NCBI GenBank assembly: GCA_005888755.1
Contig: VBBQ01000042.1
Span: 1 to 43,903 of the forward strand
DNA length: 43,903 nt
Direction of reading: 5' to 3'
Source of the DNA: Candidatus Bathyarchaeota archaeon
Lineage (GTDB): Archaea > Thermoproteota > Bathyarchaeia > 40CM-2-53-6
Position 1 is the first letter of the stretch. Every line of letters starts with the position of its first letter. A program made the position numbers and the translations under genes. Below are positions 22,674-36,374 of this stretch, piece after piece. The notes beneath the pieces were generated by a model. That model saw nothing but the letters and a program-made list of their open reading frames with translations. It had not been told where the DNA came from and did not search any database.

Positions 22674-23243
22674 TTAGGCTTTGAACCAGCTAAAAACGAG
22701 ATATCTTATCTCGTCCATCTTAGTATCTGGAATTGCGATGATGAATTGCTTCCTAACGGTCGTTGCTAGCCTTCCAGCTCGGACTACCTCGAAGGGCCCC
22801 ATGATGGACTCGGGATCTTCGACCGAGACGATGAACGGAGCATGATCAATTCCAGGTCCGTGCTCGTATACGGCAAAGTCAGCGCCGAACTTTATTCCGG
22901 GGGTGACGATGTAGCCTTTGTTTCTCAAGTCCTTGTACACTTGGTATGCTTGGCTGAATCCACGATAGGTCTCTCTAGCCTCTCTCAGTAAGAGTGATTT
23001 GCGAACAGGTTCTTTGGTCCTTCCGTCAATTACGGATATTCTGTGGTGCTCGAGGAGATAGAGTCCTTCCATGAGGTCGAGCAGAAGCGGGACTTCGAAG
23101 TCTTGGTCTGGTTTTGGTTTTGGTATTCCGACTGGTTTTCCGAAGAATCCCGAGCGGTAAATGTCAAGCCCGGTCTTTGCGTCCCATACGATGAGGCGGG
23201 TTCCGATAAGTTCCGCTTCGCCTTGGAGGGTCGTGGACTTCAT
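22674..23243 (-). CDS. endA: tRNA splicing endonuclease
   Basis: Cleaves both exon-intron borders of archaeal introns at bulge-helix-bulge motifs. The C-terminal catalytic domain is complete: YKDLRNKGYIVTPGIKFGADFAVYEHGPGIDHAPFIV carries the catalytic Tyr and His, and VRAGRLATTVRKQFIIAI the catalytic Lys. The N-terminal domain (~80 residues) contains YLLEHHRISV. At 189 residues it is the single-copy subunit size; whether a partner subunit exists elsewhere cannot be seen. It lies 7 bases after a DUF47 gene. Its substrates probably include the tRNA intron and the proposed pcm mRNA intron in this window. Confidence 0.93.
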   Translation of the reverse strand: MKSTTLQGEAELIGTRLIVWDAKTGLDIYRSGFFGKPVGIPKPKPDQDFEVPLLLDLMEGLYLLEHHRISVIDGRTKEPVRKSLLLREARETYRGFSQAYQVYKDLRNKGYIVTPGIKFGADFAVYEHGPGIDHAPFIVSVEDPESIMGPFEVVRAGRLATTVRKQFIIAIPDTKMDEIRYLVFSWFKA

Positions 23244-34686: not shown

Positions 34687-35724
34687 TTGGGCGTAGATCT
34701 GGGGGACATTATTACTCGGTCCAAGAGTTCGCTGGATGAGTTTTCAGGAAAGACTTTCGCGGTCGATGCCCACAACGCGCTCTACCAGTTTCTCGCGATA
34801 ATTCGCGGGCCCACCGGGGAGCCCTTGATGGACCGGCAGAGTAGAGTTACGAGTCACTTGAGTGGGCTCCTTTACCGAACGACCAACTTGGCAGAGAGAG
34901 GAATCAGACTCGCGTATGTCTTCGATGGAAAGCCCCCGAGTCTCAAAGACACGGAGATCAAGCGAAGACAAGTCATCAAGGTTGAAGCCACTACGAGATA
35001 CGAATCCGCATTATCAACGGGAAAGTTTGAGGAAGCGAAGCGGTATGCTCAGGCGAGCTCCAGCCTTAAGGATTTGATGATTGATGATGCTCACAAACTT
35101 CTCCAGTACCTGGGCGTCCCGATCGTCCAAGCTCCATCTGAAGGAGAGGCTCAGGCCGCCTATATGGCGGCTCGCGGGGATGTTTGGGCTGCGGTCAGCC
35201 AGGATTACGATTCATTGCTATTCGGGGCTCGGAGGCTCGTTCGGAATCTAGCGATAAGCGGAAAAAGAAAGCTGCCTATGCGAGAGGCCTACGTTCAGGT
35301 AGAACCGGAATTGGTAGACCTTGCATCAACTTTGCAAGCTCTACAGCTGTCGCGAGAACAACTCGTAGACTTGGGGATTCTCATTGGAACCGATTTTAAC
35401 CCTGACGGTTTCAAGGGAATCGGGCCAAAGACGGCCTTGAAGCTGGTTCGAGAGCGCGGTACGATTGAGAGGATTGCTGAATCGAATAAGGATGTGGTTC
35501 CGCCGCCGGAGCTGGATAGAATTAGAGAGATCTTTCTGAAACCTGCGGTCACTTCGAATTACGCTTTGAATTGGGGGAAATCCGATGTTGAATCTCTTGT
35601 GCGGTTCCTGTGCGGAGAGAGAGACTTCAACGAGGAGAGAGTCCGCACTGCGGTAGAGAGGGCAAGGACAGCAATGGCCAAAGACAGTGGTAAGAAAACG
35701 CTTGAGTCATTCTTCGGTAGTTAA
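34687..35724 (+). CDS. fen: Flap endonuclease 1
   Basis: Structure-specific nuclease removing 5' flaps in lagging-strand maturation and repair. The N block ([36 protein letters not shown]), the [10 protein letters not shown] strand, the I block ([33 protein letters not shown]) with its acidic metal ligands and the helix-hairpin-helix ([21 protein letters not shown]) are intact. The C terminus [10 protein letters not shown] is a PCNA-binding PIP-like box. The TTG at 34687 gives the family start MGV. Its stop overlaps the convergent pcm gene by 4 bases. Confidence 0.95.
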
Positions 35725-36374
35725 TCACTGAAGCCGAATTTCCCGACGAGAGGAACGAATGCGACTCCTCCCAAGGAATCCCGCTCTAAGGCTCCATCAG
35801 GTTTTTTCCTGACCCGGACAAGTTCTTGCGGGAACATTCTTCCTCCTACAGGCATAACTAGGATTCCGTTGGGCTTCAACTGTTCCAGTAAGGGGGGCGG
35901 AATCTTGGGTGCTGCCGCTGTCACCAGTATTCTGTCAAAGGGGGCTCGCTCTGCGTAACCTAACGATCCATCGCCTTGGACTAGCGTGACATGGTTGGCG
36001 TATCCTGCTTGACCCAGGTTATTCCTCGCAATCGCGACCAGTTTGTCGACGTATTCAACCGTGAAAACGTGTCCTGATTCCCCGACTATTTCTGCGATAG
36101 TAGCGGCATGGTATCCGCTCCCTGCACCTACTTCTAGCACCTTCATCCCTTGCCGTAGCTCCAATGCCTCGTCCATTATGGCCACCATGTAACGCCCGGC
36201 TGGTCAGCCGAGTGGCGCACTGATTGTCTGGCCATGATCCGTTGGCAAAGGAGTATCACTATAGGCGTATTGGCGAAGGTTAGTGGATGCGAACAGTTCT
36301 CGCCGCACCTTTCTCATTGCATCGACGACCTCGCGGGTTTTGAGGACCCCTTCTGCGACGAGCGCCTGGACCAT
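35721..36374 (-). CDS. pcm: Protein-L-isoaspartate O-methyltransferase, interrupted by a 21-base putative intron
   Basis: Repairs isoaspartyl residues using SAM. The 3' exon encodes [35 protein letters not shown] (SAM motif), [32 protein letters not shown] and [13 protein letters not shown]. The 5' exon, in the same frame upstream, encodes the family N terminus ([28 protein letters not shown] ... [13 protein letters not shown]). Between them lies a 21-base segment with an in-frame TGA. Its removal at BHB cleavage positions gives GQTISAPHMVAIM, the family sequence, and a 210-residue protein. The ATG at 36374 is the first in frame; homology suggests ~10 more residues upstream, where no start codon exists. 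Confidence 0.85.
36191..36211 (-). other. Putative 21-base archaeal mRNA intron with bulge-helix-bulge motif in pcm
   Basis: On minus, exon CGCC (36217-36214) pairs with intron GGCG (36196-36193) as a 4-bp central helix. The 5' bulge is ACU (36213-36211) and the 3' bulge UUA (36192-36190). The inner helix is CGGCU/AGCCG with loop GACC (36210-36197). An outer helix of G-C, U-A and G-U pairs follows in the exons. Cleavage after the second base of each bulge removes 36211-36191, including the stop TGA (36206-36204), and joins CAC to ATG, restoring His-Met. Size and geometry fit a minimal archaeal intron. Splicing itself has not been shown. Confidence 0.8.

Follow-up and report, generated by a model that had tools for sequence, protein, structure and literature searches.

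A predicted bulge-helix-bulge intron in the isoaspartate methyltransferase gene pcm of Bathyarchaeia and two further archaeal classes

For more than two decades cbf5, which codes for the pseudouridine synthase aCbf5, has been cited as the only protein gene of archaea whose coding frame holds a bulge-helix-bulge (BHB) intron. Its pre-mRNA introns, of 16-44 bp, are known from Desulfurococcales and Sulfolobales (Watanabe 2002; Yokobori 2009, PMC2738675), and their cleavage by EndA and splicing have been shown by cDNA. A study of 2020 (PMC7714728) names cbf5 as the one further BHB intron on record apart from the case it describes itself, that of the Haloferax volcanii gene HVO_1309, which likewise has an EndA-processed mRNA. 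The same motif marks archaeal pre-tRNA introns, and the rule for an EndA substrate is a 4-bp helix with two 3-nt bulges (PMC6379350). Here we describe what we take, with a probability of about 95%, to be a BHB intron in the archaeal gene pcm, which encodes protein-L-isoaspartate O-methyltransferase; EndA would excise it from the mRNA and RtcB would ligate the exons. It resembles the cbf5 introns in being short and lying inside a coding frame, in its predicted cut after the second bulge base, in an often relaxed motif, in the lack of an ORF and in its apparently repeated clean losses, and differs from them in host gene and site and in occurring in three classes, none of them among the groups where the cbf5 introns had been described; the splicing of cbf5 is demonstrated by cDNA, that of pcm is predicted from sequence. 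With pre-tRNA introns it shares the motif and the presumed enzymes, but it has no tRNA body around it and the exon arm of its helix is fixed by codons. Unlike the BHB of HVO_1309, which lies in the 5' UTR, the pcm element interrupts the coding frame.

The window, by which we mean the whole stretch of 43,903 nt that was analysed, belongs to a Candidatus Bathyarchaeota archaeon, and its pcm gene (minus strand, 36374-35721) is split by a 21-nt insert holding an in-frame TGA (Table 1). The TGA terminates a 56-aa ORF (36374-36204) that is the N-terminal part of pcm, and a 155-aa ORF (36188-35721) is the other end of the same gene; the Pfam profile PF01135 (PCMT) matches across both ORFs without a change of frame (E 1.3e-63), interrupted by just the one TGA, and in a search with this profile the window pcm was the genome's only full-length match. 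With the insert removed, the junction reads GCG-CCA-C^AC-ATG, the SAPHM motif is restored and the gene codes for a gapless isoaspartate methyltransferase of 210 aa, which matches isoaspartate methyltransferase models and aligns with solved PCMs (2yxe; 1jg1, motif GQTVSAPHMVAIM) with no gap across the junction. The original prediction, an intron at 36191-36211 with an in-frame TGA, proved exact to the base, and this product bears out its claim that removal of the 21 bases yields CAC-ATG and SAPHM. Splicing should be needed for function, since unspliced mRNA would stop at the TGA after about 56 residues, with no SAM-binding domain.

Table 1. Features of the window that bear on the predicted pcm intron
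Feature	Position	Strand	Remarks
pcm exon 1	36212..36374	-	54 codons and first base of His codon, ending ...GCG CCA C; dN/dS about 0.10, near relatives
Predicted intron, 21 nt, TCGGCTGACCAGCCGGGCGTT	36191..36211	-	In-frame TGA at 36206-36204; 117 genomes have an insert here, 20-48 nt long
pcm exon 2	35721..36190	-	AC of His codon, then ATG GTG GCC ... to stop
Central BHB helix, 5' arm CGCC	36214..36217	-	In exon 1, Ala-Pro codons GCG CCA
Central BHB helix, 3' arm GGCG	36193..36196	-	In intron; GGCG, or GGTG if exon codon is GCA (7/7)
5' bulge ACU	36211..36213	-	Predicted cut 36212/36211; border conserved
3' bulge UUA	36190..36192	-	Predicted cut 36191/36190; exon 2 always starts ^ACATG
Inner stem-loop CGGCU-GACC-AGCCG	36197..36210	-	Stem covaries in relatives
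EndA catalytic-type subunit (tRNA-intron lyase), presumed cutter	22674..23243	-	TIGR00324 7.3e-28; PF01974 4.9e-27

Every BHB element that had been proposed is present in the window copy: the central helix CGCC/GGCG, the bulges AC^U and UU^A, the inner stem CGGCU/AGCCG with its loop GACC, and an outer helix of three pairs (G-C/U-A/G-U). By itself such a shape is weak evidence, and the case rests on relatives. A scan of both strands of the window that required an inner stem of at least 4 bp next to a 4-bp central helix with 3-nt bulges found 29 BHB-like shapes on the two strands together, and Markov shuffles gave 17-33 per strand; the earlier judgement that chance is unlikely therefore holds by the comparative evidence and not by the shape, which occurs at about chance level. 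Seven of the 29 shapes would join reading frames, two of these seven being the pcm site in two registers, and the pcm copy scores best among the seven. Three frame-joining candidates clear of EndA and pcm were read and looked like chance. A search of the window for Rfam families and tRNAs found none.

The proposed comparison of pcm across related genomes turned up both intron-bearing and intron-less orthologues. Within the window's own family, 19 of 21 genomes have an insert at the same site: ten inserts measure 21 nt, six 22 nt, two 20 nt and one 26 nt; of the two without a readable insert, G016 has no exon 1, near a contig start, and G020 has only a PCMT paralogue of the SALHMTALF type. A survey of the class, in which 256 Bathyarchaeia genomes were searched and the sites located were read in the DNA, gave 112 introns in 111 genomes, spread over families f1, f6-f13, f15 and f17. 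A covariance model trained on 38 introns was also used to search the phylum (398 genomes), and beyond the class it located an intron at the same pcm site in six genomes (G261, 23 nt; G262 and G290, 34; G283 and G304, 29; G297, 31); five of them belong to one class, where 5 of the 7 genomes examined carry it, and G261 is the only genome examined from its class. In all 117 genomes (111 Bathyarchaeia and six of two other classes) the insert lies at the identical phase-1 site, and excision between the second and third base of each bulge brings back the SAPHM frame for all 112 class introns and the six outside. Within the class, exon 1 always ends in GC[GA]CC[AT]C and exon 2 starts with ACATG. The intron sequences come from MAG assemblies, and the feature recurs in more than 100 independent ones. 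Its distribution is wider than expected and probably ancient. The covariance model also scored weakly in genes other than pcm (a P-type ATPase and others; E 0.002-0.1), and those of these hits that were read look like chance; when viral contigs were scanned, no relatives turned up.

The class introns are 20-48 nt long, so that the length of 21 nt, which had been called unusually short, lies within their range and that of the cbf5 introns (16-44 bp; PMC2738675). Their lengths fall into all three remainders modulo 3 (34/50/28), which excludes translation through the insert: 78 of the 112 shift the frame (20, 22, 26, 28, 29, 31, 32 nt and others), their stops vary between TGA, TAA and TAG, and every one of the 34 introns of length 3n holds an in-frame stop. 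In these 34 the stop is mostly the second codon after Pro, which recalls the enrichment of stops in eukaryotic 3n introns. In the longest pcm introns, of 48 nt (G201, G202), the inner stem is lengthened to a long hairpin, and the inner part of the element seems free to grow.

Selection at the RNA level is evident from how the two arms change together. In a set of 38 introns, each 31 nt long, 97.6% of cells are paired. Each of the six inner-stem pairs shows substitutions in both of its partners, and double-change cells number 57 against 18.8 in shuffles; when the partner columns are slid by one to three, pairing falls to 19-40%. The central helix is compensated across the exon-intron border, the exon Ala codon GCA being matched by intron GGTG in all 7 cases, which come from four families (f7, f11, f17, f34), and GCG by GGCG in 107 of 111. 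Three copies (G049-G051, introns of 30 nt) have a G-U pair in this helix, and the sole distinct intron in which it contains an unpaired position is that of G160 (L095), with GACG for GGCG and hence a C.A mismatch, which might reflect a sequencing error, decay of the element or simple tolerance. Of 108 genes with the intron, 105 use GCG for the Ala, as against 12 of 29 without it (Fisher 2e-11, uncorrected for shared ancestry), and both exons are under purifying selection alike, with dN/dS of about 0.10 among near relatives. What had been named as the sign of a wrong call, relatives with a degraded pseudogene lacking compensatory changes, was looked for, and the opposite was found. The outer helix is another matter: its three pairs are present in the window copy, but among the 102 distinct introns compared no pair except the first, a G-C, is invariant, the second forming in 36, so that most pcm introns appear closer to a relaxed than to a strict BHB.

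No reading other than an intron with these borders accounts for the relatives, given one site in 117 genomes, mixed lengths, covariation, exon-intron compensation and clean absences; four other readings were weighed against these data. In the first, the ribosome bypasses the hairpin and the mRNA is never spliced. In its favour, the would-be take-off codon is followed by a hairpin, and bypassing elements of about this size are known from other systems. However, the His codon is split (C^AC), and a peptidyl-tRNA on CCA would need a Pro triplet directly before CAC, of which the window copy has none; moreover, the 4-bp helix and two 3-nt bulges fit the EndA substrate rule (PMC6379350), and it is precisely this central helix that exon-intron compensation keeps. 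Bypassing thus seems very improbable. We regard it as just as improbable that translation stops at the TGA and restarts at the ATG at 36188, two bases past the intron, where the 155-aa ORF opens, to give two separate polypeptides that act together, or that the locus is a pseudogene: the break falls inside the conserved SAPHM, intron-less orthologues are intact single frames and the BHB pairing is conserved, while the dN/dS on both sides excludes a pseudogene.

A stop that is read through or recoded (by a suppressor tRNA or as selenocysteine), with seven extra residues kept in the protein, is scarcely credible. It would suit the window copy taken singly, in which an insert of 21 nt leaves just one TGA in frame, and ARAGORN calls a tRNA with a CUA anticodon in the genome, though CUA would read TAG and not TGA. 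The frame-shifting majority of class introns, whose lengths are not multiples of three, refute it for the family; the stop codons differ as well, and it leaves the stem covariation unexplained. Chance resemblance or assembly error, for which one might cite how common BHB-like shapes are in the window, has a negligible probability given same-site recurrence with covariation in 117 genomes.

Under the BHB intron reading, the pcm pre-mRNA would fold so that exon CGCC pairs with intron GGCG with a 3-nt bulge on either side, EndA would cut both bulges between the second and third base, and RtcB would ligate the exons to give CAC-AUG and an intact enzyme, probably circularising the 21-nt intron as well. 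That the pcm mRNA is in fact cleaved and ligated we consider highly probable on the comparative evidence. In addition to the EndA subunit in the window, the genome encodes RtcB and, on contig C32, a second, more divergent EndA-type protein of 176 aa, and the pair suggests a two-subunit (alpha-beta)2 enzyme. EndA of this type accepts relaxed BHB motifs (PMC6379350) and has been linked to pre-mRNA introns (Yoshinari 2006, as cited in PMC2738675); the weak outer helix of most pcm copies may demand an enzyme of such relaxed specificity.

The tRNA genes of the same genome look unusually intron-rich. Only 17 matches to the Rfam tRNA model were found (L184-L200), mostly longer than an intron-less tRNA, and in those aligned the inserts lie in the anticodon and D loops; some tRNAs have two. 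The CUA-anticodon tRNA called by ARAGORN, 91 nt long and labelled Pyl (L189, C17:8556-8644), may itself be a mis-called intron-containing tRNA.

A second protein gene of this genome carries a BHB insert and serves as an internal control. In the window's genome and its relatives the cbf5 profile match is split over two frames, and in the 20 genomes read (the window's and 19 relatives; L228-L246) a BHB insert of 19-23 nt lies inside the codon of the catalytic Asp in GTL-D-P; in the window's genome the junction is CTAG^AGGTCCCGTTCAGGGCCGGAGTA^ATCC (L227, G000:C4:17400-18700). As judged from these sequences, the insert extends the known crenarchaeal cbf5 intron to Bathyarchaeia, for which no published report was found in the literature searched. 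Compared by eye only, the pcm and cbf5 introns of the genome differ in central helix (CGCC/GGCG vs CUCU/GGAG) and in flanks.

Searches for isoaspartate or isoaspartyl with archaeal intron, and of the wider literature, returned nothing relevant, in a body of work that included few subscription papers and no preprints. Within that literature the original view of pcm as a new host gene stands, and pcm is probably, after cbf5, the second protein gene of archaea known to depend on BHB splicing. If so, EndA-dependent mRNA splicing would be neither a one-gene oddity nor confined to Desulfurococcales and Sulfolobales, reaching 117 mostly uncultivated archaea of three classes. The pcm introns offer more than 100 natural variants for testing what EndA accepts, and they show clearly how RNA structure can hold a synonymous codon in place. 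In these genomes pcm comes out of simple ORF calling truncated or split, and calls of its presence or absence may be wrong. More tentatively, mRNA splicing by the tRNA machinery might be an ancient and lasting trait of much of the Thermoproteota. BHB introns (in cbf5, pcm and perhaps others) would then have persisted from a time before at least three classes diverged, possibly owing to a regulatory role of splicing in these genes; isoaspartate repair could then, for example, be tied to EndA/RtcB capacity.

Intron-less pcm occurs in families f3, f4, f16, f18-f20, f23 and f24 and also within f9, f10 and f12, with exactly zero extra bases at the site. On the pcm tree at least 13 state changes are needed, five of them forced by well-supported branches. 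The count gives no direction, but because many intron-less genes are nested among intron-bearing ones, one or a few early gains followed by repeated precise losses would be the simpler reading. Such losses might have occurred through recombination with cDNA of the spliced mRNA, as has been proposed for cbf5 (PMC2738675), and with so many of them pcm is a gene in which the disappearance of archaeal introns can be studied. An intron-less PCMT paralogue in which SALHMTAMFCEY replaces SAPHMVAIMDE (L018, L037-L041, L043-L046) is present in families for which no canonical pcm was found.
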